From positions 2,844,501 through 2,908,500 of the forward strand of contig NZ_CP048815.1 in the NCBI RefSeq assembly GCF_010977555.1: 64,000 nt of DNA, written 5' to 3'. Source of the stretch: Caulobacter rhizosphaerae. GTDB lineage: Bacteria > Pseudomonadota > Alphaproteobacteria > Caulobacterales > Caulobacteraceae. This document shows, piece by piece, positions 6,056-23,157 of this stretch. The first letter of the stretch is position 1. Every line of letters starts with the position of its first letter. The notes beneath the pieces were generated by a model that searched no databases, was not told the origin of the DNA, and saw only the letters and a program-made list of their open reading frames with translations. The translations under genes and the position numbers were made by a program.

Positions 6056-6148
6056 TATGGCAAGCAGCGTTCATGGAGCGCTGTTCAGCCAGCCAGGCCA
6101 ACGTGACCCACGCCAAGCCGGCGCGGTCGGCCGCACCTCCAGGGCGTC

Positions 6149-6183
6149 CAAAAAGAAAATCCCCGCCGGAGGGGCCGGCGGGG
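6149..6183 (-). terminator. Rho-independent terminator of the maltose-type receptor
   Basis: On the minus strand a perfect 9-bp GC stem (CCCCGCCGG / CCGGCGGGG, 5-base loop) is followed by ATTTTCTTTTT. It lies 24 bases after the stop at 6207, just where the receptor transcript should end. Confidence 0.9.
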
Positions 6184-6206
6184 AGTTGCAGGGGAGGGGG
6201 ACGTCT

Positions 6207-8981
6207 TTAGAACCGGTACGAAACGCCGACCATGTAGGTGGTGCCGTACTTCTGGTAGTCGATGGTCTGGCGAGGATCGCCGCTCTGGTAGGTCTTGAAC
6301 GGCTCATCGGTGATGTTGTTGGCCTGCAGCAGGATCGACAGGCCGTTGAGCGGACCTTGCCGGAACTCGTAGCCGATCTGGGCGTCAAGCACGGACTCGG
6401 TGTCGACGGTCCGGTAGATCCGCGCGGCGCTGAGGCCGGCGACCTCGCCCAGGAACTTGCTGCGGTAGCGGTTGCTGATCCGGGCGTTGAAGCCGTTGTT
6501 CTCGTAATAGAACGTGGTGTTGATCACCGTCTTCGACAGGCCGGGCATGTCGATGGGCGCGGTGTTGTCGTCCAGCTTGACCGAACTGTCGGTGTACGAG
6601 CCGCTGATGATCAGGCCGAAGTTGCGCAGCGGCTCGAAGAAGATGTCGCCCTGGATCGAGGCCGACAGTTCGATGCCGCGGATATAGCCGCCCTTGCCGT
6701 TCTGCGGCGCCTTGGCCAGGCCCTGGGGGGTGCCTAGCTGCGATTGCTGGGTCGGCGTCAGCAGCGACAGGAACGGCGAGAAGTCCTCGATCGTCGAGGC
6801 GCCGGAGTTCACGAAGTTCGACAGTTTCTTGTAGTAGGCGGCGGCCGAGACATAGGCTGAACGACCGAAGTACTTTTCCAGCGACACGTCGACGCCGTCG
6901 GCGATGTAGGGCCGCAGCTGGGGATTGCCGCCTTCGGTGCTGAAGTACGAGGTGTTCGGATCGGTCGAGGTCAGGTTCGACAGGTTCTGGTTGAACGACT
7001 GGCTGGCGCGCAGTTCGTCCATCCGGGCCCGGGCCAGGGTGCGGGCCGCGCCGAACCGCAGGAAGGTCTCGTTGCTCAGGTCGAACGTCAGGTTCAGGCT
7101 GGGCAGGACATAGGTGTATTTGTCGCCGCCGTCGTTGCTGGTCGGATGGGCGGTGTCGGCCGGATTGACCCGCGTGCCGGTCGAGGACTGGTCGGTATGG
7201 ACCACCTGCAGGCCGGCGTTGCCGGTGACCGGGATGGAACCGACCGTGCTGTCGATGTCGAACTTGGCGTAGGCGACCTGTACGTCTTCCTTGACCGCCC
7301 AGTTGCGGGTCTGGACCGCCGGGCTCTGGTCGGCGACCAGGGTGTAGACGCCGTTGTCGAGCAGGTAGGTCGGGTCATAGGCCAGCATGGCCTTGATGCC
7401 GATCAGGTTAAGGCTGACCGTGCCGACCAGCGCTTCCTTGGGAATCGGGCGGCTCAGCGGCGCGCCCTGGGCGATCGTGCCGCCGAAGGTCAGGAAGCTT
7501 TCGTGGACTTCCTTGGACTTCTCGCGACGGCTGGCGTTGTAGCCGAACTCGACCTTGTTGATCGGACCCCACGCCAAGTCGCGCTTGGCGGTCAGGCGGA
7601 CGGCGTTCAGCTCGTCCTTGATCGCCGGGGTGTTGTAGAAGCCCGCCTGGGTCACGGCCCCGCCCGTGGCGGCCCCGCCGTTGGCGCCGGCGCCCCAGCC
7701 CTGGGGATCGGTCAGCACGAACAGGGTCGAGTTGGTGTAGTCCAGGCTCGAGCCGAAGGTGGTGCCCGCGCCGGGCGTGGTGTTGAAGGTCAGGGTGTCG
7801 GTGGCGCCGACCCCTGACGGCCCCGTCCCCGAATAGGATTCGAAGATCACGTCGCGACGCTTGGCGTCCGAATGGCTGAGGTCGGCGGCGAGGGTCCAGC
7901 CGTTGTCGGTGTCGTAGGCGATGTTCCAGCCGGCCGACTTCAGAGTGGTGTGGCGGGTGTTGAGGTCGTTGCGCATGACCCCCTTCACGCCGGTGTAGGT
8001 TCCGTTGGTGATCAGGCCGTCCTGGGCCGTGTAGCCCGGCTGCAGGCTGGCCGAGCTCCAGAACAGCGGCAGCTCGATGCCGCGCAGGATCTGCTTTTCG
8101 CGGAACTTCGAATAGTAGAGGTCCAGCGAGGTGTGGAACTTGTCGGTGGGGCTGTATTCCAGCACCCCGATCACGCCGGTGCGCTTGAGGTTGTTGGACT
8201 GCACGTACGGCTTGGCGCCGCCGATGACCAGATCGCCGGACGCCGTGGTGGGATAGCCCCACGCGTTGAAGCGGCGGCTCTGGGTCGGGCTCGAGATGTC
8301 CGAGACCGCCACGGCGACGCCCAGGGTGTCGTTCAGGAACTGGTCGACGAAGGTGGCGCTGAGCCGGTGACCGGTGTCCTTGGCGTCCGGGTTCAGCTTG
8401 TCTTCGCTGTTCATCTCGTAGCGGGCGTTGGCCGACAGCACCGTCTTGCCGTACTTCAGCGGGCGGATGGTCTGCAGGTCGGCGGTGCCGGCCAGGCCCT
8501 GGCCGATCAGGGCCGCGTCGGGGGTCTTGTAGACCAGCACGCCGCTGAGGATTTCCGACGGATACTGGTCGAACTCGACGCCGCGGTTGTCGCCGGTCGA
8601 GACCTGCTCGCGGCCGTTCAGCAACACGGTGTTGTAGTCGGGGCCCAGGCCGCGGATCGAGATTGACTGGGCGCGGCCGTCCAGGCGCTGGGCGGTCAGG
8701 CCGGGCAGGCGGGCCAGGGACTCGGCGATCGAGGTGTCGGGCAGCTTGCCGATGTCCTCGGCCGACACGGCCTCGACGATCGAGCTGGAGGACTTCTTCA
8801 GCGCGATGGCGTTCTCGATGCCCGCGCGGATGCCGGTGACGGTGATTTCCTCGACGGCATCGGGGGTCGGCGCGGCGGTGTCCTGAGCGTGGGCGGCGCC
8901 GGCGGTCGCCAGTAGCAGGGCCAGGCCGGTGGCGGCTCCGCTCATCAATCGCGTTCGGCGCGGCATGGAATTGGTCGTCAT
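6207..8981 (-). CDS. TonB-dependent receptor, Xanthomonas/Caulobacter type (MalA-like maltodextrin receptor)
   Basis: 924 residues; signal peptide ending TAGAAHA-QD, TonB box VEEITVTGIRAGIENAIALKK, then SSSIVEAVSAEDIGKLPD, RLDGRAQSISIRGLGPDYN and a barrel ending YMVGVSYRF. This long-plug subfamily (TIGR01782 type) includes the Caulobacter maltose receptor MalA and carbohydrate receptors of Xanthomonas. It is divergent from a GH13 amylase/alpha-glucosidase pair, the arrangement expected for maltodextrin uptake. A TGCAA-type operator lies 58 bases upstream and a clear terminator follows. Assignment to maltodextrins rests on neighbours and subfamily, not on a binding-site signature. Confidence 0.9.
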   Translation of the reverse strand: MTTNSMPRRTRLMSGAATGLALLLATAGAAHAQDTAAPTPDAVEEITVTGIRAGIENAIALKKSSSSIVEAVSAEDIGKLPDTSIAESLARLPGLTAQRLDGRAQSISIRGLGPDYNTVLLNGREQVSTGDNRGVEFDQYPSEILSGVLVYKTPDAALIGQGLAGTADLQTIRPLKYGKTVLSANARYEMNSEDKLNPDAKDTGHRLSATFVDQFLNDTLGVAVAVSDISSPTQSRRFNAWGYPTTASGDLVIGGAKPYVQSNNLKRTGVIGVLEYSPTDKFHTSLDLYYSKFREKQILRGIELPLFWSSASLQPGYTAQDGLITNGTYTGVKGVMRNDLNTRHTTLKSAGWNIAYDTDNGWTLAADLSHSDAKRRDVIFESYSGTGPSGVGATDTLTFNTTPGAGTTFGSSLDYTNSTLFVLTDPQGWGAGANGGAATGGAVTQAGFYNTPAIKDELNAVRLTAKRDLAWGPINKVEFGYNASRREKSKEVHESFLTFGGTIAQGAPLSRPIPKEALVGTVSLNLIGIKAMLAYDPTYLLDNGVYTLVADQSPAVQTRNWAVKEDVQVAYAKFDIDSTVGSIPVTGNAGLQVVHTDQSSTGTRVNPADTAHPTSNDGGDKYTYVLPSLNLTFDLSNETFLRFGAARTLARARMDELRASQSFNQNLSNLTSTDPNTSYFSTEGGNPQLRPYIADGVDVSLEKYFGRSAYVSAAAYYKKLSNFVNSGASTIEDFSPFLSLLTPTQQSQLGTPQGLAKAPQNGKGGYIRGIELSASIQGDIFFEPLRNFGLIISGSYTDSSVKLDDNTAPIDMPGLSKTVINTTFYYENNGFNARISNRYRSKFLGEVAGLSAARIYRTVDTESVLDAQIGYEFRQGPLNGLSILLQANNITDEPFKTYQSGDPRQTIDYQKYGTTYMVGVSYRF

Positions 8982-9038
8982 CAGAGGCTCCCTCCCAATC
9001 GGTTCCCGCGGTTTCGCCGCGGTGATCCAGCTTCGTTG

Positions 9039-9052
9039 TGCAAATTACTGCA
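9039..9052. promoter_or_regulatory. LacI-type operator-like site (receptor side)
   Basis: TGCAAATTACTGCA, an imperfect dyad TGCAA-ATTA-(C/T)TGCA in the divergent region between the receptor (start 8981) and the amylase. It differs by one base from the site at 9205-9218. TGCAA/TTGCA half-sites are typical of LacI-family maltose regulators; no such regulator gene is in the window. Confidence 0.55.
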
Positions 9053-9183
9053 AACAAATGCCTTCATTGCAACCGGAAAAATGAGCCGGACGTCGCGCTC
9101 GGTGCCCGCAAGGGGACGGGTGGCGGAAGATGGTTCGCGGATTTCCTGTTTATTCGGCGCCTTTAGGCGCTTTGCGTGGGTGA

Positions 9184-9218
9184 TTGACAGCTTCGGAAGG
9201 TTTCTGCAAATTATTGCA
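9184..9218 (+). promoter_or_regulatory. Putative amylase promoter with embedded operator
   Basis: TTGACA at 9184-9189 is a consensus -35 box. At the expected -10 distance lies the AT-rich perfect dyad TGCAA-ATTA-TTGCA (9205-9218), so a bound repressor would cover the -10 region. The amylase start is at 9275. The whole 293-base divergent gap (8982-9274) otherwise shows no gene. Confidence 0.5.
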
Positions 9219-9274
9219 AATCAAATGATCGGCGCTGAATCGACCGATCTTGTTAATGTCAGAGGGGCGGGCGC

Positions 9275-11113
9275 TTGGAACTTTGGAGGGCATGGGCGAG
9301 TCGATCGGTGTGGGCCGCGCTTATCGCCGCCACGACGATGACCGCCGGGTTCGCCCAGACCGCGCAGCCGGGTGGGGCCACCTATCTCGACCGCTCGCCA
9401 CAGGACGAGGTGATCTACTTCGTTTTGCCCGACCGCTTCGCCAATGGCGACCCGACCAATGATCGGGGAGGTCTTTCCGGCGATCGCCTGACGACGGGGT
9501 TCGATCCAACCGACAAGGGATTCTACCACGGCGGCGATCTGGCCGGTTTGACCGCGCGGCTGGATTATATCCAAGGCCTGGGCGCGACGACGATCTGGCT
9601 GGGTCCGATCTTCCGCAACAAGGTGGTGCAGGGGCCTTCAGGTCGGGAGTCCGCCGGCTACCACGGCTACTGGATCACCGACTTCACCGACGTCGACCCA
9701 CATTTTGGTACGCGGGCTCAGTTGAAGGCCCTGGTCGACGCCGCCCATGCACGCAGCCTCAAGGTCTATCTGGACATCGTCGTCAACCACACCGCCGACG
9801 TCATCCAATATCGCGCCTGCGCCGCGACCGGCTGCGACTACCGCTCCAAGGCCGACTATCCGTTCGTCCGCCGGGGCGGCGTCGCCGGCGCGGTGATCAA
9901 TGACGGCTTCCTGGGCGACCAGGCCGAGCGGCAGAAGGCGGAGAACTTCGCGCGACTGACGCGGCCTGACTTCGCCTACACCCCTTACGTCCCCGAGAAC
10001 GAGGCGACGATCAAGAAGCCCGCGTGGCTGAATGATCCGATTTGGTACCACAACCGCGGAAACAGCCGGTTCACCGGCGAAAGCTCGACCTATGGCGACT
10101 TCTCAGGCCTGGACGACCTAGCCACCGAGAACCCGCGCGTACTGCAGGGCTTCATCGACATCTACGGCCAGTGGATCGACGACTTCGGGATAGACGGCTA
10201 CCGGATCGACACCGCCCGCCACGTGAACCCCGAGTTCTGGCGCGCCTTCGTGCCGGCCATGCTGGCCCGCGCCAAGGCCAGGGGAATTCCGAACTTCCAC
10301 ATCTTCGGCGAGGTGGCCGAAACCGAGCCGGGCATGCTGGCCAGGTTCACCCGGGTGGACGGCTATCCCGCCGTGCTCGATTTCGCCTTCCAGGGCGCCG
10401 TGACCGACGTCGTCAACGGCAAGACCGGAACCGACGCCCTGGGGCGCCTGTTCGCGCAGGACGCGCTGTACGAGGGCGGGGAGGCGGCCGCGCTGCAGCT
10501 GCCGACCTTCCTGGGCAATCACGACATGGGCCGGATCGGCCACTTCGTGCGCCTGGCCCATCCCGAGGCCTCGGACGAGGAGGTCACCCGGCGCGTGCTC
10601 CTGGCCCACGCCTTGCTGATGTTCACCCGCGGGGTCCCGGTCCTCTATTACGGCGACGAGCAGGGGCTGGCCGGCGAGGGCGGCGACAAGGACTCCCGCC
10701 AGGACCTGTTCGCGACGAAGGTTCCCGCCTACGCCGCCACTCGGCTCTTGGACGGCCGCTCGGCGGCGGGCGACCACTTCGCGACCGATGGCGCGCTCTA
10801 CCAGGCGATCTCGGCCATGGCGCGGTTGCGGACCGCCGAGCCGGCGCTGCGGCGCGCCCGCCAAGTCGTGCGGACCGCGAGCGACAAGCCGGGCCTGTTC
10901 GCGGTCTCGCGGATGACGCAGGACAGAGAGGTGCTGGTGGCGTTCAACACCGGCCTCACGCCGATCACGGCCCAGATCGAGGTCGATGAGACCTCGCGGA
11001 CATGGCGGTCCGCCCACGGATCCTGCGCCGCCGCCGCGACGGCGCCGGGCAGCTATCGGGTCGAGATCGACCCGCTCGACTACATGATTTGCGTTTCGGA
11101 GGTTGGCCAGTGA
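9275..11113 (+). CDS. Secreted GH13 alpha-amylase-family glycoside hydrolase
   Basis: 612 residues. The TTG start has AGAGGGG seven bases upstream and is the first codon giving a complete signal peptide (RSVWAALIAATTMTAGFA-QT). The GH13 catalytic set is intact: DIVVNHTAD (region I), GYRIDTARH with nucleophile Asp312, FGEVAET with acid Glu346, and GNHDMGR with Asp417. A C-terminal beta domain follows. The signal peptide implies periplasmic or outer-surface cleavage of alpha-glucans whose fragments enter through or after the neighbouring receptor. Its stop overlaps the next gene start. Exact product specificity (alpha-amylase versus cyclomaltodextrinase or neopullulanase) is not resolved. Confidence 0.9.
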   Translation: MELWRAWASRSVWAALIAATTMTAGFAQTAQPGGATYLDRSPQDEVIYFVLPDRFANGDPTNDRGGLSGDRLTTGFDPTDKGFYHGGDLAGLTARLDYIQGLGATTIWLGPIFRNKVVQGPSGRESAGYHGYWITDFTDVDPHFGTRAQLKALVDAAHARSLKVYLDIVVNHTADVIQYRACAATGCDYRSKADYPFVRRGGVAGAVINDGFLGDQAERQKAENFARLTRPDFAYTPYVPENEATIKKPAWLNDPIWYHNRGNSRFTGESSTYGDFSGLDDLATENPRVLQGFIDIYGQWIDDFGIDGYRIDTARHVNPEFWRAFVPAMLARAKARGIPNFHIFGEVAETEPGMLARFTRVDGYPAVLDFAFQGAVTDVVNGKTGTDALGRLFAQDALYEGGEAAALQLPTFLGNHDMGRIGHFVRLAHPEASDEEVTRRVLLAHALLMFTRGVPVLYYGDEQGLAGEGGDKDSRQDLFATKVPAYAATRLLDGRSAAGDHFATDGALYQAISAMARLRTAEPALRRARQVVRTASDKPGLFAVSRMTQDREVLVAFNTGLTPITAQIEVDETSRTWRSAHGSCAAAATAPGSYRVEIDPLDYMICVSEVGQ

Positions 11114-12735
11114 CGGTCGAGACCCTTTCAAAGCCGTCCACCGACCGGGCCCACGACCGCGACTGGTGGCGCGGCGCGGTGATCTACCAGATCTATCCGC
11201 GCAGCTTCGCGGACTCCAACGGCGACGGTGTGGGCGACCTGCCGGGCGTCACCGCCCATCTGGAGCACGTGGCCTCGCTGGGCGTGGACGCCATCTGGCT
11301 GTCGCCGTTCTTCACCTCGCCGATGAAGGACTTCGGCTACGACGTTTCAAACTATGAGGATGTGGATCCCATCTTCGGAACCCTGGCCGACTTCGATCGC
11401 CTGATCGAGCGGGCTCACGCCCTGGGCCTGAAGGTGATCATCGACCAGGTGTTCTCGCATACTTCCGACGAGCATCCGTGGTTCAAGGCCAGCCGTCAGG
11501 ACCGCACCAACCCCAAGGCCGACTGGTACGTCTGGGCCGACGCCAAGCCCGACGGCTCGCCGCCCAGCAACTGGCAATCGGTGTTCGGCGGCCCATCCTG
11601 GACCTGGGACGCACGCCGCCGCCAGTACTACCTGCACAACTTCCTCTCGGCCCAGCCCGACCTCAACGTCCACAACCCACAGGTGCAGGATGCCCTGGTC
11701 GCCACCTCGCGGTTCTGGCTGGACCGCGGGGTCGACGGCTTCCGCTTCGATGCGATCAATTTCGCCATGCACGACCAGGCCTTGACCGACAATCCGCCGA
11801 ACCTCGACGGCGGCGGCAAGCGCACCCGGCCGTTCGATTTCCAGCACCACTTCCACAACCAGTCGCATGATGACATTCCGGCCTTCCTGACCCGGCTGCG
11901 CCAGCTGGGCGAGTCGTACGGCGGGCGGTTCATGGTCGCCGAGGTCGGGGGCGAGCGGGCCGACAGCGAGATGAAGCTGTACACGCAGGGGCCGGACCGC
12001 CTGCATAGCGCCTACGGCTTCCTCTACCTTTACGCCGACACCCTGGCGCCGGCCCTGATCCGGCAGGGCGCGGCCATGTGGCCGGGCGGGGAGGGGCAGG
12101 GCTGGCCGTCCTGGACGTTCTCGAACCACGACGCGCCGCGGGCGGTGTCGCGCTGGGCCCGCGGCCGCGATCCCAAGGCCTTCGCCGAGATGTCGCTACT
12201 GCTGCTGGTCAGCCTGCGCGGCAATGTCTTCCTCTACCAGGGCGAGGAACTGGGCCTGCCCCAGGCGCAGGTGCCCTACGACCGGTTGCGCGATCCCGAG
12301 GCGATCGCCAATTGGCCCGAGACCCTGGGTCGCGACGGCGCCCGCACGCCCATGCCCTGGGTCGCCGTCGCCGCCCACGCGGGCTTTTCCAAGGTCGAGC
12401 CCTGGTTGCCGATCGATCCGTCGCACATCGACCTGGCCGTCGACCGCCAGGAGCGCGACGTCGACTCCACGCTGAACGTCACCCGGCGGCTCGTGGCCCT
12501 GCGCCGCCAGTTGCCCGGTTTAAGGACCGGGGCCATGAGTCTGGTCGAAGCGCCGGAGCCGCTGCTGGTCTTCCTGCGCGGCGAAGGCGCCGACCAGGTG
12601 CTGTGCGCCTTCAACCTGGGTTTCGAGCCCGTGACCTGGCGCCTGCCCGCCGGCTGGCGGATTATCGAGAGCGTCAATCTGGGCGGGCGGGGCGCGCTGC
12701 CGCCGATGGCCGGACTGGTGGCGCGAAAGGACTGA
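11110..12735 (+). CDS. GH13 alpha-glucosidase
   Basis: 541 residues, no signal peptide, so cytoplasmic. It opens WWRGAVIYQIYPRSFADSNGDGVGDLPG, the hallmark of the alpha-glucosidase/oligo-1,6-glucosidase group of GH13. Catalytic residues: Asp214 in DGFRFDAIN, Glu278 in VAEVGGE and Asp341 in SNHDAPR. The GTG start at 11110 overlaps the amylase TGA (GTGA) and has GGAGG seven bases upstream, so the two are translationally coupled. It should split imported maltodextrins to glucose. An upstream extension of the frame to 11002 exists but lies inside the amylase gene and is not needed. Confidence 0.92.
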   Translation: MTVETLSKPSTDRAHDRDWWRGAVIYQIYPRSFADSNGDGVGDLPGVTAHLEHVASLGVDAIWLSPFFTSPMKDFGYDVSNYEDVDPIFGTLADFDRLIERAHALGLKVIIDQVFSHTSDEHPWFKASRQDRTNPKADWYVWADAKPDGSPPSNWQSVFGGPSWTWDARRRQYYLHNFLSAQPDLNVHNPQVQDALVATSRFWLDRGVDGFRFDAINFAMHDQALTDNPPNLDGGGKRTRPFDFQHHFHNQSHDDIPAFLTRLRQLGESYGGRFMVAEVGGERADSEMKLYTQGPDRLHSAYGFLYLYADTLAPALIRQGAAMWPGGEGQGWPSWTFSNHDAPRAVSRWARGRDPKAFAEMSLLLLVSLRGNVFLYQGEELGLPQAQVPYDRLRDPEAIANWPETLGRDGARTPMPWVAVAAHAGFSKVEPWLPIDPSHIDLAVDRQERDVDSTLNVTRRLVALRRQLPGLRTGAMSLVEAPEPLLVFLRGEGADQVLCAFNLGFEPVTWRLPAGWRIIESVNLGGRGALPPMAGLVARKD

Positions 12736-13221
12736 AGCCTCCGCCCGTAATCGCGATCGCCGCGAAAACTCGTCAAATACGTCGACCAAAGGGACGTGGG
12801 GCTAATAGCCTGCACCGGCGGTGGCGGTCTTTCCTTGGTCGGCCGCAACCTGGCAAACCTGCGTTGCAAATCAGCCAGGCGACAGCGCATTGCTTCGCTG
12901 TCGATCTCAGCAAAACCCAGAAACTCGAAACGTACTTAATCGTTTGATATTTCTGATAATATATCTTAGACGATGAACAACTGTGACGATCGATGTCGGT
13001 TTTCGCATGTCGGTCGTCGCGGTTTTTGTCACTGTCCCCGCGTCGCCTTGAACTCGTCGAAATAGATGGCGGCGGGCAATCTTATTTTCTGGCGCGACCG
13101 ACCTATCGTGCTGACCGCCAGTTCGGCAGCTATGACCAGTCGCTCACGCTCCATTCGTTGCGACCATCCAGCGCCGAAAATCGAGCCTGTAACGCCCAGT
13201 CGTTTGTGAGATGCTCCTGTC
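12736..13221. other. Intergenic stretch, no supported gene
   Basis: 486 bases with a locally AT-rich patch around 12930-12980 that could hold a promoter. Short frames on both strands have poor codon use and no recognisable product. No terminator with a T-run was found after the alpha-glucosidase. Confidence 0.5.
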
Positions 13222-13473
13222 ATGGCCAACCGCTTCCACACCCTTAGCCCGTTTAGAAAATCGCCGGCACACGTCACGCGGCTACGGATCCGGATGTTCG
13301 CTCAGATGATCCGGAACGTCGGCGTCGTCATGTTCGGGCTCTGCGCCGGCTGGATGGCGATGACGCTGGCTTTCAGCTGGAACCTGGCGCTAGGCGCCGT
13401 CATCGGCCTCGCACTGTTTCTCCTGGGCTACGGGCTGATCCCGTTTTACGTGGATCCGGAGGACGATTTCTAA
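13222..13473 (+). CDS. Small hypothetical membrane protein
   Basis: 83 residues. A basic N-terminus (about 30 residues, Arg/His-rich) is followed by two hydrophobic segments, roughly 33-50 and 55-73, and an acidic tail VDPEDDF, predicting a two-pass inner-membrane protein with cytoplasmic N-terminus. I do not recognise the family. The Shine-Dalgarno is weak (GAGA). It ends 34 bases before the convergent hydrolase-recombinase fusion. Confidence 0.5.
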   Translation: MANRFHTLSPFRKSPAHVTRLRIRMFAQMIRNVGVVMFGLCAGWMAMTLAFSWNLALGAVIGLALFLLGYGLIPFYVDPEDDF

Positions 13474-13507
13474 CTGGCAAGCTTGCCAACCGCCCTCCTC
13501 CGCCGAT

Positions 13508-15331
13508 CTAGCGACCTGCTGGCGTTCGCTGGAGCCCGAGCCCTCTATTTCCGGGCAACCCGGATGACTTTTCGAGATCGGCCTGCCGGATCCGCGCCTC
13601 TCTGCTCCAAGCTTTTGGACAGCTCTTCGAGAGGCCCGCCTGTCGGTAGGCCTCTGTCAAAGAGCCGAACCGGTGAATGAAGAGCGCTGGCGGCGGGGAT
13701 TCAGTGGCGCGGATAAGTCGCGCGGTGACATATCCGTGGCGGGTGTGCAGCCGGCGCAGATGGTCGAGAAGTTTGTCGTCGGAGTACTGGCCGTCGACGG
13801 TCGGCCACCTGGGCACGGTCACTTTCCGAGGCGGCAAGCCAGCCCGCCGGGCCGACGTCCGGGCCATGCCGCATCGCTTAAACTCGTTGTAGTCGTACGG
13901 GACGCCGGCCAACCGATAGGCGTTTGAGAGGTTCCCAAAGTGATACCGGTAGAGGAACGCAGACGGCAAAGACGGATCGGCGTTGAGCATGGCTTCGCTT
14001 ACGTGCCCCTCTCGCTCGTACACGGTACGGAGAACCGCCAGCATTTCTTCTTCGGCGACGAGCGGCTCCACCCTCGGACGGCGCCGCCAGCGCTCATTCT
14101 GGTATCCGAGGGCGTCGTAGGCCGCCTGTAGCGATCCAAACAGCCTGCACAGAGTTTGCTGACTGGGCGTGTAGGAGCAGTGATCGATCAGATCGCCGGT
14201 CAAATACCCCTTGGCCTTGAGCAGCCGGGCCACTGCAGCGGCAGCTTCGGCTCTCGGTAGCCGGCGGCGGGAAATACGCATCCGCTGTGCTGCACGATCG
14301 AACAGCGCCCGGCTGATGACGGGCTCCAACACCTTGGTCCGGATCCAGGCCTCAGGAGGATTTAGCCGCCGACGTCCTTTAAGCGGCTGACTGGTGCGGT
14401 TGAACACGTAGATGCCGATCAACAACTCGTTCGTCAGGATGTTCCGCACCCGCAGCGCGGTCCAAGTGCTGCCGCCGGCCGTCGGCACGCCGGTTTCGTC
14501 CAGCCGCCGGGCTATGGCGACCAGGCTCATGCAGTCGGTGCTGTACCAGCGGAAGATATCCCGGATGACGGCTATTTCCTCGCTGGCGCCAACGGCCCAA
14601 ACGACGCGCTGGTTGTTGAGAGCCTTGGTTTGACCCGGCTCCAGCTTCTGTACAGGACGGCCGTTCTCGTCGACGAGGACGCGCTCGAAGCTTTCCATGA
14701 CCGCGGCGTAGTTCGGCGCCGCCAAGCCATAGAGCTTGGCCAGTTCCGCGACCTCCGGACGCGCCCATGTGCGATGCATCTCGCTGAGGAGCGCATTGGT
14801 CGAGGTCGGCTTGACGCCGCCCTGCACGAAGCGGGCAAGGCTCGTGCGGGAGGCCATTTCGCTGGGATCGCCGGAGGCGTCGACCACCGCGTAGACCTCG
14901 TAGCCGGCCGCGCGCGCATCCAGCGCCGGGAACATCACGCAGACGCTGGTCCAGACACCGGCCATGATCAGAGTCGTGCGGCCGGTGGCCTGGACCTGGG
15001 CGACGAAGTCGCCGTTGTCCCAGGCGTTCACCTCGCCCTTGCGCGGCACATAGACCGCGTGCGGGGCCATCTCATGGATTTCCGGCATCAGCGGGCCGTT
15101 CGAGCCGGAAGGCTCGGACGCGGTCGTGATCACCGGAATGTTCAGAAGCGTCGCCAGCCTGGCGACCATTTCGACATTGCGCCGAAGGTCCGCCACGGCG
15201 ATGTCCTTGACGGTCTGGAAGAGGCCCGCCTGATGATCCAGCAGCAGGATCACCGCGTCGGCGGGATCCAGGAGGGCCGCGCCGCCACCGGTGGGCAGGA
15301 CGCTCGATTTCGGGTTCGGCGATATCGTCAT
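13508..15331 (-). CDS. Isochorismatase-family cysteine hydrolase fused in frame to the C-terminal part of a large serine recombinase
   Basis: 607 residues. Residues 1 to about 217 are a nearly complete YcaC-type isochorismatase-like hydrolase with its triad: Asp32 (LLLDHQAGLF), Lys98 (VPRKGEVNAW) and Cys131 (VWTSVCVMF). From about residue 218 the sequence becomes a serine-recombinase Recombinase domain (LVDENGRPVQKLEPGQ, then SLVAIARRLDETGVPT, VRNILTNELLIGIYVFNRTS), followed by three HNH-associated-type repeats (GYLTGDLI..FGSLQAAYDALGY; GHVSEAML..FGNLSNAYRLAGV; GYVTARLI..FGSLTEAYRQAGL). The recombinase N-terminal catalytic serine domain is absent. The ATG at 15331 has GAGGAA upstream. The hydrolase half may still work; the recombinase half can at most bind DNA. 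Probably a deletion or insertion fusion. Confidence 0.8.
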   Translation of the reverse strand: MTISPNPKSSVLPTGGGAALLDPADAVILLLDHQAGLFQTVKDIAVADLRRNVEMVARLATLLNIPVITTASEPSGSNGPLMPEIHEMAPHAVYVPRKGEVNAWDNGDFVAQVQATGRTTLIMAGVWTSVCVMFPALDARAAGYEVYAVVDASGDPSEMASRTSLARFVQGGVKPTSTNALLSEMHRTWARPEVAELAKLYGLAAPNYAAVMESFERVLVDENGRPVQKLEPGQTKALNNQRVVWAVGASEEIAVIRDIFRWYSTDCMSLVAIARRLDETGVPTAGGSTWTALRVRNILTNELLIGIYVFNRTSQPLKGRRRLNPPEAWIRTKVLEPVISRALFDRAAQRMRISRRRLPRAEAAAAVARLLKAKGYLTGDLIDHCSYTPSQQTLCRLFGSLQAAYDALGYQNERWRRRPRVEPLVAEEEMLAVLRTVYEREGHVSEAMLNADPSLPSAFLYRYHFGNLSNAYRLAGVPYDYNEFKRCGMARTSARRAGLPPRKVTVPRWPTVDGQYSDDKLLDHLRRLHTRHGYVTARLIRATESPPPALFIHRFGSLTEAYRQAGLSKSCPKAWSREARIRQADLEKSSGLPGNRGLGLQRTPAGR

Positions 15332-15641
15332 TGGATTCCTCGGAATTTCCACGCTCGGATCGGCGCCGCCTGGGCGCTCCGTGCAAACGGATAATCCGTT
15401 GATCAAACCGAGTTAGATAGTAAAGTGCTGTAAACTTTAGGCCAAATATCGGCACAACATCAATCTCGTGCCGATCTTTTCCTCATAGTTTCAACGTAAC
15501 TCGGCATTTCATTCTATTACACCAACACCGATTGCAATTGTTGACCGGGCTTTACCACACATAACCCCTGCGATGACCTTCGATGGACTATCCATTTGGC
15601 CAACGTCCCAGCCTGGGCCCGTTTGCACAATGGAGAACACA
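15332..15641. promoter_or_regulatory. Divergent promoter region with two inverted repeats
   Basis: 310 AT-rich bases between the hydrolase fusion and a secreted hydrolase. TAAAGT-N7-ACTTTA (15421-15439) and ATCGGCAC-N12-GTGCCGAT (15448-15475) are perfect dyads; the second is followed by CTTTT and could be a hairpin or an operator. No short gene is apparent. Confidence 0.4.
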
Positions 15642-16400
15642 ATGAAGCGCGCCCTAGCTGGAATGATCGCGGCCCTGGCCGCCTCCGCGGCTGCCAGCGC
15701 GGCCCTCGCCGCCGAGAAACCGGTATCGATCGTGCTCGTGCACGGCGCCTTCGTCGACGCCTCGGGCTGGCGTCCGGTCTACGAACTCCTGTCGAAGAAG
15801 GGCTTTGAAGTCCTCATCGTCCAGAACCCGACCATCACCCTGGAAGGTGACGCGACGGCGGCCCGCGAGGCCATCGCCCAGGCCAGGCATCCGGTCATCC
15901 TGGTCGGCCACTCCTACGGCGGGGCGGTGATCACCGAGGCCGGGGCCGATCCCAAGGTCAAGGGCCTGGTCTATCTGGCGGCCTTCGCGCCCGACGCGGG
16001 CGAGTCCGTCCTGCAACTGGCCAGCACGCCGGTTCCGGGCGCGCCGCCCGCGCCCCTGCTGCCGCCCAAGGACGGGTTCATCCAGATCGATCCGGCCAAG
16101 TTCGCCTCGGCCTTCGCCGCCGACGTCGATCCGGCGACCACCCATTTCATGGCCGCCTCCCAGGTCCCGTGGGGCCTCGGCGCGGTGGGGGCCAAGATCA
16201 CCGCGCCGGCCTGGAAGGCCAAGCCCAGCTACTACCTGCTGGCGACACAGGACCTGATGATCCCGCCGGCGGCCCAGCGGGCGATGGCGGTGCGGGCCAA
16301 GGCCACGCTCGTCGAAACGCCGAGCAGCCACGCGGTGATGCTCTCCAAGCCCGGCTACGTCGCCGACTTCATCGAGATGGCGGCCGACGAAACCCAGTAG
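15642..16400 (+). CDS. Secreted alpha/beta-fold hydrolase (esterase-like)
   Basis: 252 residues with signal peptide MKRALAGMIAALAASAAASAALA-AE. The fold is compact: VLVHGAFVDASGW (oxyanion-hole region), nucleophile elbow GHSYGG with Ser91, Asp204 in ATQDLMI and His230 in PSSHAVM, so the catalytic triad is complete. It belongs to the short EstC-like group of small-ester hydrolases. GGAG six bases before the ATG at 15642 favours this start over ATG 15630. It is followed after 92 bases by a second secreted hydrolase on the same strand; both may act on a periplasmic ester, epoxide or similar compound. The substrate is unknown. Confidence 0.82.
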   Translation: MKRALAGMIAALAASAAASAALAAEKPVSIVLVHGAFVDASGWRPVYELLSKKGFEVLIVQNPTITLEGDATAAREAIAQARHPVILVGHSYGGAVITEAGADPKVKGLVYLAAFAPDAGESVLQLASTPVPGAPPAPLLPPKDGFIQIDPAKFASAFAADVDPATTHFMAASQVPWGLGAVGAKITAPAWKAKPSYYLLATQDLMIPPAAQRAMAVRAKATLVETPSSHAVMLSKPGYVADFIEMAADETQ

Positions 16401-16492
16401 TCGCGCCGCCCGCCGATCTCGCCACGCGCCCTGGCGTGGCGAGGCCTCTCAAAACGCTGAAAACCCCAACCTGAAATTCAAGGAGATATCCC

Positions 16493-17482
16493 ATGACCCG
16501 ACTGTTCACGTCCCTGGCCCTCGCCGCCGCCACCTTGGCCGCCACCACTCTGGCGACCGCGCCCCACGCCCTGGCCGCTCCGGCCCCGAAGGCTGCGGTC
16601 ACGCGCCTCGCGCCGCCGGTGATCCACTACCGGACCGCCATGGTCGACGGCGTGAAGGTCTTCTATCGCGAGGCCGGTCCGGCCGATGGTCCGGTGGTGC
16701 TGCTGCTGCATGGCTTTCCGACCTCGTCGCACATGTTCCGCAACCTGATCCCGCTGCTGGCCGACAAGTACCGGGTCATCGCGCCGGACTATCCGGGCTA
16801 TGGCCAGAGCGACGCGCCGGACCACACCAAGTTCGCCTACACCTTCGCCAACCAGGCCGACGTCGTCGACAAGCTGGCGACCCAGCTTGGGGCCAAGCGC
16901 TACGCCCTGTACGTCATGGATTACGGCGCGCCGATCGGCTACCGGCTGGCGCTGAAGCACCCCGAACGGGTCAGCGGCCTGATCGTCCAGAACGGCAACG
17001 CCTACAATGAGGGCCTGCAGTCGCCGTTCTGGGATCCGATCAAGGTCTACTGGAAGGACCGCTCGCAGAAGAACCGCGACGCCCTCAACAGTCTGGTCAC
17101 GCTGGACATCACCAAGTTCCAGTACACCGACGGCATGGGCGATGTGGCGCGCATCAGTCCTGACAACTGGGTCCACGACCAAGCGCTGCTCGACCGTCCG
17201 GGTAACCGCGACGTCCAGCTGGACATGCTCGGAGACTATGGCTCCAACGTGCCGTTCTATCCGGACTTCCAGAAGTTCTTTCGCGATCGCCACCCGCCGA
17301 CGCTGATTGTCTGGGGCAAGAACGACAAGATCTTCCCCGAGGAAGGCGCCCATCCCTATCTGCGCGACCTGCCGAAAGCCGAGATCCACATCCTCGACTC
17401 GGGCCACTTTGCCCTGGAGGACCGTCTCGACGTCATAGCGCCGTTGATCCACGACTTCCTGGACCGCAAGGTCGCCAACTAG
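16493..17482 (+). CDS. Secreted alpha/beta hydrolase with Asp nucleophile (epoxide hydrolase/haloalkane dehalogenase-like)
   Basis: 329 residues; a signal peptide ends near [12 protein letters not shown] (73-76) supplies the oxyanion motif. The nucleophile elbow reads VMDYGAPIG, putting Asp143 where esterases have serine; Asp278 (GKNDKIF) and His305 (DSGHFALED) complete the triad. Aspartate nucleophiles are the mark of epoxide hydrolases and haloalkane dehalogenases, which attack carbon rather than an ester carbonyl. A canonical AGGAG lies before the ATG. It is probably cotranscribed with the preceding hydrolase and convergent with a winged-helix regulator. Which leaving group it takes is not visible. 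Confidence 0.83.
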
Positions 17483-17501
17483 ACCTGACGCCCACGCATC
17501 C

Positions 17502-17536
17502 GATGTCCGCGACGCGCTCAGCGCGCCGCGGACATC
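17502..17536. terminator. Hairpin between convergent genes
   Basis: GATGTCCGCG (17502-17511) pairs perfectly with CGCGGACATC (17527-17536) across a 15-base loop. It follows the hydrolase stop at 17482 and overlaps the last codons of the convergent regulator. There is no long T-run, so terminator function is only likely. Confidence 0.5.
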
Positions 17537-18120
17537 ATACGTTGAGGTTGGGCGAAAACGCCCTCGATCCAGGCCTCATCGCGGGCGGTCAGCTCGATGC
17601 ACAGGACCCGGCGCGACGTCCCCGACGCCCCGCCCGCCCCGGACTCGCCGGGTAGGTCGACGACCACCGAGCGCATCGCCTGTGTCAGCAAGGCGACCAT
17701 GTTGTGAAACCGCTCCTCCAACGGGCCCGCGGGCGAGGAATGGGCTTCGCCGACGAGGGGCTGCGGCGACGCCATGGCTGTCAGGGTCGTGGAGGCCTCG
17801 CTACGTTCGACGGGCGCGATGAACCGGTAGCCTCGACCGTTCACGGTGGCGATGTACTGGGCGAGGTCCGCATCGTCGTCGAGCGCGCGGCGCAGGGCGG
17901 CGATGTGGACCTTGAGATTTCCCTCGACGACCGTGGTGCTGGGCCAGGCCTCTTCCAGCAGCTCGCGCTTGCTGAGCACTTCGCCGGGACGTTGGACGAA
18001 GGCGGTCAGCAGATCCAGGGCCCGGCACCCGATGCGGACGGCCTGGCCGTTCTTCAGCAGGAGCTGGCGCCGCGGGATGAACAGATACTCGCCAAAGGCG
18101 AAGGTGGGAGCGTGGGTCAT
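17518..18120 (-). CDS. OmpR-type winged-helix transcriptional regulator without receiver domain
   Basis: 200 residues. The N-terminal domain (about 10-100) is a Trans_reg_C winged helix: FGEYLFIPRRQLLLKNGQAVRI, LSKRELLEEAWP, VEGNLKVHIAALRRALDDD, YIATVNGRGYRFI. The C-terminal 100 residues are low-complexity and helical with no recognisable sensor, and no membrane span is evident, unlike CadC/ToxR. The ATG at 18120 is chosen; the frame upstream starts only with TTG. It converges on the two secreted hydrolase genes and may regulate them. The signal it senses is unknown. Confidence 0.75.
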   Translation of the reverse strand: MTHAPTFAFGEYLFIPRRQLLLKNGQAVRIGCRALDLLTAFVQRPGEVLSKRELLEEAWPSTTVVEGNLKVHIAALRRALDDDADLAQYIATVNGRGYRFIAPVERSEASTTLTAMASPQPLVGEAHSSPAGPLEERFHNMVALLTQAMRSVVVDLPGESGAGGASGTSRRVLCIELTARDEAWIEGVFAQPQRMMSAAR

Positions 18121-18650
18121 GAGCGTGTCGCTCCGTTCCGCAGGTCCACACCACTCGCATCGCGGCGGCGGATTGATTTCCAAAGGTTCGACAAGCCACC
18201 CTCCTCTGATTGAGCTTCGAGGCTAGGGCGCTGCGTCGGAAGGGTTCAATTCGTCCATGGTCGCACTCCTATCCCCACCGGGCGTGTCGCGTTCGACCTT
18301 GGTCTAGCTGGGCTTGGCGCCTCGCGCTGCGCGGCCCCTCGGCGCTCCCTCGGATCGCACCGACAGTCGACGCGCCCGGTCTCGGGGCCGCCTCGCGCCC
18401 AATGATCACGTTCGCGCTAGCAGAAGGTCGAACGCGCCTAGACCTTGGTCAGGTGGAAGCGGGGTCTGGATCACGCTAGTTTGAGCTAACGCCGGACAGG
18501 CGGGACAAAGGCCCCTCGTGGCGCCGCCGCACGTCACGCCCCAGACAGCCGAAAGATCAGATTCTGGAACAGCTCTATCGCGACATCGAGCGCCTGAGCC
18601 TCCTGCCCGAAGCGTGGAAGGGCCTTGACCCGACCTCGATCGCAGAGGGC
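18121..18650. other. Intergenic region containing the probable 5' end of the kinase gene
   Basis: 530 bases between divergent regulator and kinase. From 18480 onward the kinase frame is open and, from about 18555, codes for DQILEQLYRDIERLSLLP, which looks like genuine kinase N-terminal sequence, yet no ATG/GTG/TTG occurs before 18651. The rest shows no feature I can support. Confidence 0.5.
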
Positions 18651-21368
18651 GTGCTCGACACCCTGCTCGACATGCTCGCGCTGGATTTCGTGGGCCTGCG
18701 CTTCAACGACACCACACACATCTTCCTGCGCGTGGCCCCGGCTTTCGGCGATACGTGTCCGGCGGAGGCGATCCGCGCCGCCCTGGAAACCTGGTCCGCC
18801 ACCGGCGCGCCCGAGGTCATGCAGACCGTGGGCGGGGGGGCGATGTCGGTGGTCCAATGCCCCCTGGGCGAGAACGCCAGCATCGGCGTGATCCTGGCTG
18901 GCGCGCGCCGCGTCGCCTTTCCGGATCGGATGGAGCTGTCGAAGCTCAGGCTTGCCGCGTCACAGGCCGGCCTGGCGTGCCGCGAGATGCGCGACCTCAG
19001 CGACCGCCAGCCGCCCGCGGATTTCCGCGACAAACCCCTCTCCGAGGCGGCCTTGGCGGAAAGCGAATGGCGGCTGCATCTTACCATCAACACCATCCCG
19101 ACCATGGCTTGGTCGACCACGTCCGATGGACTGATCGACTTCTGCAACCAGAACTTCGTCGACTATGTCGGGTGGACGGCCGAGGAGATCAGCGGCCAGG
19201 GCTTCTGGCCGATCTTCCACCCGGACGACACCGCGCACCTGCTGGCCTCCTGGCAGGAGATCCTGGCCACCAAGCGCCCCCGCGACGTCGAGGGCCGCAT
19301 CCGGCGCGCCGATGGCCAGTACCGCTGGTTCGTGCTGCGGCAGAACCCGCTGTTCGACGCGGATGGCGTCGTCATCAAGTGGTATGGCGCCGGCGCCGAC
19401 ATCGAGGATCGCAAACGCGCCGAGACCGCGCTCGAAGTGGCTCAGGCCGCCCTGCTGGCCAGCGAGCAGAACCTCAACCTGATCATCAATTCGCTGCCGG
19501 TCCTGGTCTGGTCGGCGCGGCCCGACGGCAGCGCCGATTTCATCAATCACAGCTGGCGCGAGTACGCCGGGGAACCGGCCGACAAGATCCTGGAATGGGG
19601 CTTCCTTGATCTCTACCACCCCGACGACGTGGCGGGCATGGTCGAGATCTGGAAGCGGGACCTGGCCCACAGCGATCAGACCTCGCTGAAGGGGCGTATC
19701 CGCGGCGCCGATGGCCAATACCGCTGGTTCTATTTCGCGGGCCGCAAGCTCACTGACGCCAATGGCGTGGTGCGATGGTTCGGATGCAACGTCGATATCG
19801 AGGACCTGCAGCGGAGCGAGGACGCTCTACGGACGAGCGAGACCGCCCTTCGGGAAAATGAGCGCCGGCTGCGGCACATCATCAATGCGGTGCCCGGTCT
19901 TGTCTGGTCGGCGGACGCGGGCGGCGCGATCACGTTCCTGAGCCAGCAATACCTGGACTATATCGGTCAAGGCGCGGCTTCGGCCTTGGCGGGCGGCTGG
20001 ATGGACGCGATCCACCCGGAAGACGCCGATGGGCTTCTCGGCGCGTGGGCGCTGGCCTTGGCGCAAGGCCGCGCCAGCGAACACGAAGCGCGGCTTCGGC
20101 GCGCGGACGGCTGCTATCGCTGGATGCTCTTCCGCGCGAGCCCGTCCCACGACGAGACCGGACGGGTGATGGAATGGTTCGGCGTCAATATCGACGTCGA
20201 GGACCGCAAGGATGCGCGAGATGCGCTTCGGGCCAGTGAAGCCGCGCTGCGTGAAAGCGAGCGGCAGCTCCAGCAGATCGTCTCGTCGATCCCCGGCCTG
20301 ACCTGGAAGGCCGACGCCGAAGGCAACATCACCTTCTGGAGCCAGAGCTTCCTGGAGTATGGCGGCGCCACGAACGAGGAGATCCTCGGCTATGGCTTCA
20401 TGAACTACCTCCACCCGGAAGATCATGAGCGGGTCCTGGAAGTCTGGAACGGCATTCTGCAATCCGGAACCCAGGGGGAGTCGGAGGTGCGCATACGCCG
20501 GGCCGACGGCCAGTACAGGTGGTTCCTGTGGCGAGCCAGTCCGTTCTTCGACGGCGCTGGCAACGTCACCCAGTGGTTCGGCATCAATGTCGACATCGAA
20601 AACCGCAAGCGCGCTGAGGAGAACCTGCGTCAAAGCCAGAACGAACTGGCCCACGCGACGCGGATGACGACCATGGGCGAACTCGCGGTTTCGATCGCAC
20701 ACGAGGTCAATCAGCCGCTGATGGCGGTCGTCACCAACGCCGGGGCGTGCCTGCGCTGGCTGAATGGCGACCCGCCGGATCTGGCCATGGCGCGTCAGGC
20801 CGCCGAGCGCATCGTGCGAGACGGGCACCGAGCAGGCGACATCATCACTAGCCTGCGCAATCTAGCGCGCAAGTCCGCGCCGCGCTTGGATCGGGTATGC
20901 CTAGATCAGGTCATCCCGGTGGTGCTTGACCTGCTGCAGGGCGAATTCAGGCGCCACGGCGTTGTCGCCAAAGCGGAGCTCGGCGATTTCAACATCACCA
21001 TCCGCGGCGACAGCACCCAGTTGCAGCAGGTCGTGCTGAACCTGGTCATGAACGCCGTCGAGGCAATGGCCAGCGCAGCGGCGAGCGCACGCCGCCTGAC
21101 CGTCAGCGCCGAAATCCACGACGGCGATGCGCTGGTTACGGTCGCGGACACCGGACCGGGGTTGGGGACCGATGACCCCGATCGCCTGTTCGAGGCCTTC
21201 TTCAGCACCAAGACCGAGGGAATCGGCATGGGCCTTTCAATCTGCCGCTCGATCATCGAAGCCCACGGAGGCAGGATCTGGGCTTCCAGCAACGGGGCGC
21301 GTGGCGGCGTCTTCAGTTTCACCCTACCCTTGGCGGAAGGATACGGCGTTGATGTCTCCAACGGCTAA
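18651..21368 (+). CDS. Multi-PAS sensor histidine kinase
   Basis: 905 residues from the GTG at 18651. An N-terminal GAF-like segment (to about 125) is followed by four PAS/PAC units starting near 141 (HLTINTIPTMAW), 274 (LNLIINSLPVLVW), 406 (LRHIINAVPGLVW) and 539 (LQQIVSSIPGLTW), each ending in a WFG.N/GADIED-type PAC. HisKA carries phospho-acceptor His684 in SIAHEVNQPL; HATPase_c follows with an N-box near 790 (VVLNLVMNAVEAM) and GLGLSICRSI-like G boxes. No membrane span, so a soluble FixL/NodV-like sensor, perhaps of redox, light or aromatic ligands. Coding sequence upstream suggests the real start is non-canonical or earlier. Overlaps the response regulator by 17 bases. Confidence 0.85.
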   Translation: MLDTLLDMLALDFVGLRFNDTTHIFLRVAPAFGDTCPAEAIRAALETWSATGAPEVMQTVGGGAMSVVQCPLGENASIGVILAGARRVAFPDRMELSKLRLAASQAGLACREMRDLSDRQPPADFRDKPLSEAALAESEWRLHLTINTIPTMAWSTTSDGLIDFCNQNFVDYVGWTAEEISGQGFWPIFHPDDTAHLLASWQEILATKRPRDVEGRIRRADGQYRWFVLRQNPLFDADGVVIKWYGAGADIEDRKRAETALEVAQAALLASEQNLNLIINSLPVLVWSARPDGSADFINHSWREYAGEPADKILEWGFLDLYHPDDVAGMVEIWKRDLAHSDQTSLKGRIRGADGQYRWFYFAGRKLTDANGVVRWFGCNVDIEDLQRSEDALRTSETALRENERRLRHIINAVPGLVWSADAGGAITFLSQQYLDYIGQGAASALAGGWMDAIHPEDADGLLGAWALALAQGRASEHEARLRRADGCYRWMLFRASPSHDETGRVMEWFGVNIDVEDRKDARDALRASEAALRESERQLQQIVSSIPGLTWKADAEGNITFWSQSFLEYGGATNEEILGYGFMNYLHPEDHERVLEVWNGILQSGTQGESEVRIRRADGQYRWFLWRASPFFDGAGNVTQWFGINVDIENRKRAEENLRQSQNELAHATRMTTMGELAVSIAHEVNQPLMAVVTNAGACLRWLNGDPPDLAMARQAAERIVRDGHRAGDIITSLRNLARKSAPRLDRVCLDQVIPVVLDLLQGEFRRHGVVAKAELGDFNITIRGDSTQLQQVVLNLVMNAVEAMASAAASARRLTVSAEIHDGDALVTVADTGPGLGTDDPDRLFEAFFSTKTEGIGMGLSICRSIIEAHGGRIWASSNGARGGVFSFTLPLAEGYGVDVSNG

Positions 21369-22002
21369 GGACGGCGAGGGCGAGCGCGTCGTCGCCGTTA
21401 TCGACGACGACGAAAGCGTTCGCGAAGCGCTGCGCGGTCTGTTCCAATCGGTGGGCCTGGTGGCGGAGCTCTACGGCTCGGTGCAGGCGTTCATCGACGC
21501 CGGCCAAATGGAGCGTGTTGGATGCATCGTGCTGGATATCCGCCTGCCGGGTCGCAGCGGCCTTGAGTTCCAGGAGGCCCTGGCCAGGAGCGGCGCGGCC
21601 CAGTCGGTCGTGCTCATCAGCGGCCACGTCGATGTCCAGATGGCGGTCCGGGCCATGAAGGCCGGCGCCATCGACGTGTTGACCAAACCCGTGCGCGAGC
21701 AAGATCTCCTGGAGGCCGTGAACAGGGCCTTGGCCGCCGACCGGCAACGCCGGGAAGAGGCCAAGGGCGGGCAGGCGCTGCGCGCGCGACACAGGACTCT
21801 CTCCGAACGCGAGCGGCAGGTTTTCGCCTTGGTGGCGGCCGGCTTGCTGAACAAGCAAATCGCCGATCGCGTCGCCATCACCGAAGCGACCGTCAAGCTT
21901 CACCGCAGCCAGGTCATGAAGAAGATGGAGGCTGGGTCCTTGGCCGATCTGGTGCGGATGGCCGACCTGCTGGCCAAGGCCGAGGCGAGCCCGGAACTCT
22001 GA
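21352..22002 (+). CDS. FixJ/NarL-type response regulator with LuxR helix-turn-helix
   Basis: 216 residues. The receiver domain (about 13-125) has acidic pocket DDD at 18-20, phospho-acceptor Asp62 (VLDIRLPGRSG) and Lys112 (LTKPV). The C-terminal LuxR HTH (LSERERQVFALVAAGLLNKQIADRV...VKLHRSQVMKK) lies at about 147-190. The ATG at 21352 overlaps the kinase stop, so both are translationally coupled and certainly a pair. It presumably activates target promoters on phosphorylation; no target is adjacent except possibly the hydrolase and peptidase genes. Confidence 0.93.
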   Translation: MSPTAKDGEGERVVAVIDDDESVREALRGLFQSVGLVAELYGSVQAFIDAGQMERVGCIVLDIRLPGRSGLEFQEALARSGAAQSVVLISGHVDVQMAVRAMKAGAIDVLTKPVREQDLLEAVNRALAADRQRREEAKGGQALRARHRTLSERERQVFALVAAGLLNKQIADRVAITEATVKLHRSQVMKKMEAGSLADLVRMADLLAKAEASPEL

Positions 22003-22013
22003 GCCGGGCGTCT

Positions 22014-22042
22014 CGCCGGGGACGGGTCGCCCGTCCCCGGCG
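22014..22042. terminator. Strong bidirectional hairpin
   Basis: A 13-bp perfect stem, CGCCGGGGACGGG with CCCGTCCCCGGCG, and a 3-base loop, between the response regulator (stop 22002) and the convergent peptidase (stop 22051). No T-tract, so termination efficiency is uncertain. Confidence 0.7.
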
Positions 22043-22050
22043 GCGAGGGC

Positions 22051-23019: not shown

Positions 23020-23157
23020 GGTCGATACTCCGGAAGATGACTGAAGGGCTCCCCGCACCTGAACAGCGTCTAGCGCTTGCGCGCAGGCGCCACGAGAAAG
23101 CGAAATGAAACTCAAGATTTCCAGGAAGGGGCTTGCCGCTCTCGCGGCCGTGCCGCG

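Follow-up and report, generated by a model that had tools for sequence, protein, structure and literature searches.

An in-frame chimera of a YcaC-like hydrolase and a serine recombinase remnant beside a candidate dif site in Caulobacter rhizosphaerae, most likely a recent one-off accident

Chimeric open reading frames arise at rearrangement breakpoints joined by microhomology. The gene described here unites parts of two unrelated protein types, the YcaC-type cysteine hydrolases (1YAC, 4WGF/4WH0) and the large serine recombinases with HNH-associated repeats (PF00239, PF07508 and PF18780). According to an excerpt of PMC4519933, YcaC of Pseudomonas aeruginosa is an octamer in which three C-terminal helices reach the active site of the neighbouring subunit. 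Literature searches joining 'isochorismatase' with 'serine recombinase' returned no records, and among the records listed for large serine recombinases and gene fusion none concerned such a protein, as judged by title and the start of the abstract. The fused gene lies in a 64,000-nucleotide stretch of the Caulobacter rhizosphaerae contig NZ_CP048815.1 (positions 2,844,501 to 2,908,500), hereafter the window, whose relevant features are collected in Table 1.

Table 1. Features around the fused gene, in window coordinates.
Feature	Position	Strand	Basis or remark
Left collinear block, TonB receptor and two GH13 genes	6148..12741		collinearity with 10 of 10 relatives' loci
dif-like (XerC/XerD-type) 28-mer	12949..12976		single copy by 21-base pattern, 49.8% of contig C1
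83-aa ORF with hydrophobic stretches	13222..13473	+	no Pfam match above cut-off
Fused ORF, YcaC-like hydrolase and recombinase C-terminal part	13508..15331	-	607 aa plus stop
Recombinase 3' part, PF07508 and HNH_repeat region to stop	13508..14689	-	93% to P0001 171-562
Junction TTC	14687..14689	-	in most hydrolase relatives and three recombinase relatives
Hydrolase part, codons 1-214	14690..15331	-	comparison with relatives
Right block, hydrolase, alpha/beta hydrolases, regulator, PAS kinase and on	14690..23100		collinearity

The fused gene is a single open frame without an internal stop, and three Pfam domains fall within that one frame: Isochorismatase (E 1.6e-21), Recombinase (E 3.9e-22) and HNH_repeat (E 1.8e-10). 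The 607-residue form starts at ATG 15331, just 5' of which stands a GAGG that could serve as a ribosome-binding site; an alternative TTG start at 15406 would yield 632 residues, and this longer form was used for the Pfam and NCBIfam profile searches. Promoter and terminator scans returned 0 and 2 sites, respectively, which is not above shuffled sequence. Since relatives of the hydrolase half are up to 93% identical and an intact recombinase shares 93% of 392 residues with the recombinase half, the likeness of both halves to their relatives is beyond chance, and the fusion of a hydrolase with part of a recombinase is real.

Residues 1-214 form a YcaC-like hydrolase of the isochorismatase family. 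They match PF00857 with 77.6 bits against a gathering score of 27, over profile positions 2-174 of 175, and Asp32, Lys98 and Cys131 are all present. The score against the YcaC equivalog NF041461 is 193.9 bits, under the curated cut-off of 310, and the hydrolase half is thus a relative of that equivalog rather than a member. Database searches returned 5716 relatives at E up to 1e-60; the best 120 of these are 222-236 residues long, mostly about 226, and several carry names from Caulobacter segnis. As a separate gene, an orthologue with 80-92% identity occurs in 14 of the 74 other genomes of the genus, and 13 of these loci were taken with their 20-kb surroundings (G063 was left out). The alignment of residues 21-217 to 1yac covers positions 8-203 of 208 and that to 4wgf reaches residue 215, and therefore the YcaC-type C-terminal helices are kept. 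These alignments bear on the idea that the chimera contains a poorly working hydrolase whose tail disturbs the YcaC-type oligomer. Given the helices described in the excerpt of PMC4519933, a 393-residue C-terminal tail could interfere with assembly, but the helices are retained and the hydrolase half is under normal constraint relative to its relatives, even if that constraint may predate the fusion; we regard a disturbed enzyme as rather unlikely, and the hydrolase of the chimera is likely to be functional, with the DNA-binding half likely a passenger.

Residues 215-607 derive from a large serine recombinase, of which they represent the C-terminal part. The closest intact relative is P0001, a 563-residue metagenomic protein with a catalytic resolvase domain, whose residues 171-562 align with the recombinase half. 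The Recombinase domain PF07508 scores 78.9 bits against 21.1 over profile positions 2-100 of 102, and no Pfam match to the resolvase domain PF00239, which carries the nucleophilic Ser, was obtained up to E 1; as the catalytic resolvase domain is absent, the established mechanism implies that the fused protein cannot cut or rejoin DNA. Relocation of the catalytic half elsewhere in the genome was considered and rejected: no close copy of P0001 residues 1-170 was found there, the other genomic matches to P0001 being two paralogues at 43-44% and one at 27%. An origin of the recombinase from a known phage or plasmid was likewise rejected, as no close relative was found. Among plasmids, 61 records matched, all below 60% identity and with no single place covering 80% of the query; phages gave one record at 39% identity, viral contigs gave no match to the recombinase, and no plasmid matched the DNA of 12742-14760. 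The original prediction, which left the strand unstated, had described an in-frame fusion of a complete Asp32/Lys98/Cys131 hydrolase to a recombinase whose catalytic N-terminus is missing, and each part of that description is borne out by these results.

No protein with both halves was present among the 65 matches listed in a whole-protein search of 5.8 billion proteins, in which scoring covered the 8000 candidates with the most words in common, or among the 42 matches listed when residues 170-265 were searched against 5.8 billion proteins, with the presence of both halves judged by precomputed domains and coverage. Nor did any match span both halves when the genus (74 other genomes, E up to 1e-30) and an order sample (397 other genomes, E up to 1e-100) were searched; the order sample includes same-genus genomes, and at most 3 candidates were scored in each of its genomes. 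Both searches recovered the halves as separate genes only, and one genome, G074, has both kinds on different contigs. An architecture shared by more than one lineage would mark a conserved two-domain protein; within the databases and genomes searched, this one was found in a single lineage. The original prediction had proposed that presence in this genome only would indicate a fusion accident, and by that reasoning the restriction of the fusion to this genome, among the proteins and the genus and order genomes searched, points to an accident.

Gene order on the two sides of the break gives the fusion its genomic context. The left block is collinear with all ten relatives' loci up to 12706-12748 and no further; its gene names come partly from reading the sequence, and the second GH13 gene alone was family-searched. 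On the other side, collinearity continues past the hydrolase gene in 9 of the 13 relatives' hydrolase loci, in several of them to about 23000, and in the other four the match is limited to the hydrolase gene. An alpha/beta hydrolase gene of about 290 residues lies directly 3' of the hydrolase in 6 of the 13 relatives, and related sequence lies about 6 kb on from the hydrolase in two more; when the alpha/beta hydrolase region of G031 was compared with the present genome, only a 66% paralogue was found. Where the loci matching the left and right blocks share a contig, they are by coordinate 2.72 Mb (G010), 1.37 Mb (G011), 1.30 Mb (G012) and 2.54 Mb (G024) apart. In a probe for the reciprocal junction, the counterpart in this genome of the region that follows the GH13 genes in G031 (L115) proved collinear to position 9662 of L065, about 860 bp before the GH13 block is reached, and neither the L115 counterpart nor L116 matched window positions 12700-14800. 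As a separate observation, the right block encodes a sensor kinase with tandem PAS-like repeats (18651-21368), the number of which ranges from 2 to 7 by motif count in the window and eight relatives' loci.

That the junction sits at a break of collinearity is also what a false join at a repeat would produce. Yet the assembly consists of two contigs and is rated at completeness 100 and contamination 0.43, and it holds no second close copy of the recombinase half that could have caused such a join, so an assembly artefact is extremely unlikely.

Comparison with both kinds of relative places the joint at 14689-14687, where TTC is common to both kinds of gene. The hydrolase relatives read AGCTTCC at this point in 9 of 13 loci, the other four being AGTTTCC, AGTTTTC, AGCTTCG and AGCTTTG; the corresponding letters in three intact recombinase relatives are GGATTCGAG, GGATTCGAA and GGGTTCGAA. 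P0001 was compared as a protein, and the joint was read from these three other intact recombinases; it is possible that it is a few bases longer than TTC. The cut falls near a domain boundary. The original prediction had located the junction correctly, near 14680, and had attributed it to an R-V-L-V-D-like stretch shared by the two families; that homology was rejected, because TTC alone is what the hydrolase and recombinase relatives have in common there.

The dif-like site lies between the two blocks, 1.7 kb from the junction. Set against known dif sequences from a table in PMC2731167, the 28-mer at 12949-12976 matches Agrobacterium tumefaciens dif at 20 of 28 positions and Bartonella dif at 19, and it is the best match to A. 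tumefaciens dif in the roughly 500 kb of this genome that were examined (the runner-up has 17 of 28). Averaged over eight known dif sites, it matches at 17.4 of 28 positions, a value equalled by 1 of 20000 shuffles; the Caulobacter crescentus dif listed in the same table averages 14.4 against the same eight and is equalled by 99 of 20000. A 21-base pattern over the left half of the site occurs once in the genome, allowing up to 3 mismatches. The site stands at 0.498 of C1; in G010, G011, G012 and G026 the corresponding fraction of the contig is 0.46-0.50, and in G058, on a single contig, it is 0.02, counted from the contig start rather than from the origin. At least 23 of the 74 other genus genomes contain a match to the dif-like stretch, with 6 candidates scored per genome. 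Of the stretches sampled for GC skew, 9 of 13 before the site are positive and 8 of 11 beyond it negative, and the cumulative skew within 84 kb reaches its maximum at 9649, 3.3 kb from the site. The 28-mer thus combines similarity to known sites, single copy and a position near the terminus and skew switch, and by sequence comparison it is a strong candidate for the dif of this chromosome.

It differs, at 11 of 28 matches at best, from the C. crescentus dif listed in the PMC2731167 table, and the loci examined, including 84 kb here, contained no 28-mer with 9 or fewer mismatches to that sequence; the excerpts of PMC7901474 and PMC3025954 gave no Caulobacter dif sequence. A candidate Caulobacter pattern can be written as ATTTC[CT]GATAA-N6-TTAGACG..., and were 12949-12976 shown to work, it would correct or add to the C. 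crescentus dif of that table. The 83-residue reading frame, or DNA related to it, adjoins dif-like sites in three genomes, namely the window, G019 (L122) and G039 (L123), and G019 has an inverted copy of part of it about 0.6 kb away. There, genes that we named TniA/TniB/TniQ-like from reading their sequences, rather than from a family search, occupy positions 5867-9427 of L122, directly beside the relative of this frame and a dif-like site (9886-9913), and transposon targeting of the terminus is possible in that genome. We had considered 13149-13466 to be mobile debris on account of the related DNA beside the tniABQ-like genes of G019, and dropped this idea because in G039 the related DNA stands beside a dif-like site.

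A second remnant of the same recombinase occurs in G017, at a locus that had been taken for its recombinase and not for dif. It is a 474-bp internal piece whose 158 residues are identical to P0001 355-512, and the GNAT-like gene upstream reads into it in another frame. The piece is followed by DNA resembling window positions 13155-13214 (82%) and then, about 290 bp on, by a dif-like site, and the order of host gene, recombinase piece, shared sequence and dif-like site, as well as their orientation, is as in the window. In the locus concerned (L035, Caulobacter sp. Root343), the remnant spans 10001-10474 and the site 10761-10788, with the central hexamer TCTTAG, which differs from that of the window's site. 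The GNAT-like gene of G017/L035 was matched in no other of 75 genus genomes (E up to 1e-40). No dif-like site was found in the 20-kb loci of the more distant intact recombinases of G003, G026 and G074 (60-75%), even with relaxed arms. These data suggest that the recombinase gene stood beside dif before the breaks and that rearrangements set different host genes next to what remained of it.

We next consider constraint on the two halves. The dN/dS of the hydrolase half is 0.08-0.12 against five relatives' loci (5 of 13, the other 8 having been missed by the motif search), and a comparison of 158 codons of the recombinase half with G017 gives 0.12. Polarised with G003, nonsynonymous and synonymous changes on the recombinase half number 6:12 on the window branch and 7:14 on the G017 branch, with 11 of 50 changes unpolarised. 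The window branch is not accelerated, and no stop or frameshift has entered the recombinase half over 393 codons. Since the window branch as a whole is not neutral, either the fusion happened recently or constraint on the tail persists; put otherwise, a recombinase half without decay means that the event is recent, or that the tail is tolerated or used. Amino-acid changes over this half are few, and five outgroups lie at nearly the same distance from it as from P0001 (39/37 to 111/112).

A selected two-domain protein, in which an oligomeric hydrolase is anchored to DNA, or gains multivalent binding to it, through the recombinase domain and the HNH-associated repeats, would account for the low dN/dS in each half, for the fused branch without decay, for the retention of domains in both halves together with the hydrolase catalytic residues, and for the scarcity of unique departures at otherwise invariant columns of the recombinase half (2 against the 15 closest intact relatives, 0 against 47). 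Divergence before the fusion, however, explains the low dN/dS equally well; the 14 amino-acid changes on the fused branch against 7 on the P0001 branch, with 7 unassigned, indicate if anything relaxation; and a second example is lacking from the databases and the genus and order genomes searched. In an AlphaFold2 model that is itself weak (mean pLDDT 64, pTM 0.37, mixed alignment of 40 sequences), pLDDT falls below 50 at the junction (204-248) and at 301-356 in the recombinase domain. We consider selection for the combined protein distinctly unlikely, and its fullest form, an octameric cysteine hydrolase bearing eight serine-recombinase DNA-binding modules and tethered to recombinase half-sites near the terminus, less likely still. 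Were such a working protein real, it would be a natural case of a metabolic enzyme captured by the DNA-binding half of a mobile element, and if the tail is used, the architecture would be new for an enzyme.

Rather than representing a novel type of enzyme, the chimera most likely goes back to a recent, one-off accident, and we think it highly probable that a rearrangement at the terminus created a single chimeric gene that is in frame by chance and carries a passenger tail. A fresh fusion by rearrangement is indicated because no other example was found, because the flanks are collinear with two loci that lie far apart, and because only TTC is common at the joint. A serine recombinase gene of the P0001 type would originally have stood next to dif, and a deletion, inversion or translocation would have cut it just past the catalytic domain. 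Its remaining 3' part would then have been joined, through about 3 bp of matching sequence, to the 3' end of the hydrolase gene; in the three relatives measured, the hydrolase gene and the dif-like site are 0.4-1.7 Mb apart. The reading frame would have been kept by chance (1 in 3), and the product, which we infer is made, would be a hydrolase with intact catalytic residues and YcaC-type C-terminal helices and a tail presumably without selected function. Counting against this account are the undecayed tail, since a selected tail would give the same, the cut close to a domain boundary, the different sequence of the listed C. crescentus dif and the position of the site in G058. Of the interpretation offered by the original prediction, a fresh fusion through rearrangement or mobile DNA is upheld, the R-V-L-V-D joint is not, and its alternative of a selected DNA-binding hydrolase gained no positive support.

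The locus offers a clean case of a domain combination born by accident and caught before decay, with both parents identified. It also points to a site for such events, beside a probable dif, where the same recombinase has been broken next to different host genes in two Caulobacter species. Compared with YcaC-type hydrolases, the fused protein matches the domain over nearly its whole length with the D/K/C residues in place, but it differs in its C-terminal extension, in the replacement of about 11 native C-terminal residues and in its score below the YcaC equivalog cut-off. With the P0001-type recombinases it shares the Recombinase domain, and unlike them it has no catalytic resolvase domain. 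Like chimeras formed by microhomology at breakpoints, it brings together two unrelated genes at a joint of about 3 bp, in one genome and at a break in collinearity; unlike them, its frame stays open through the whole of the second gene part, and its break lies close to a dif-like site.
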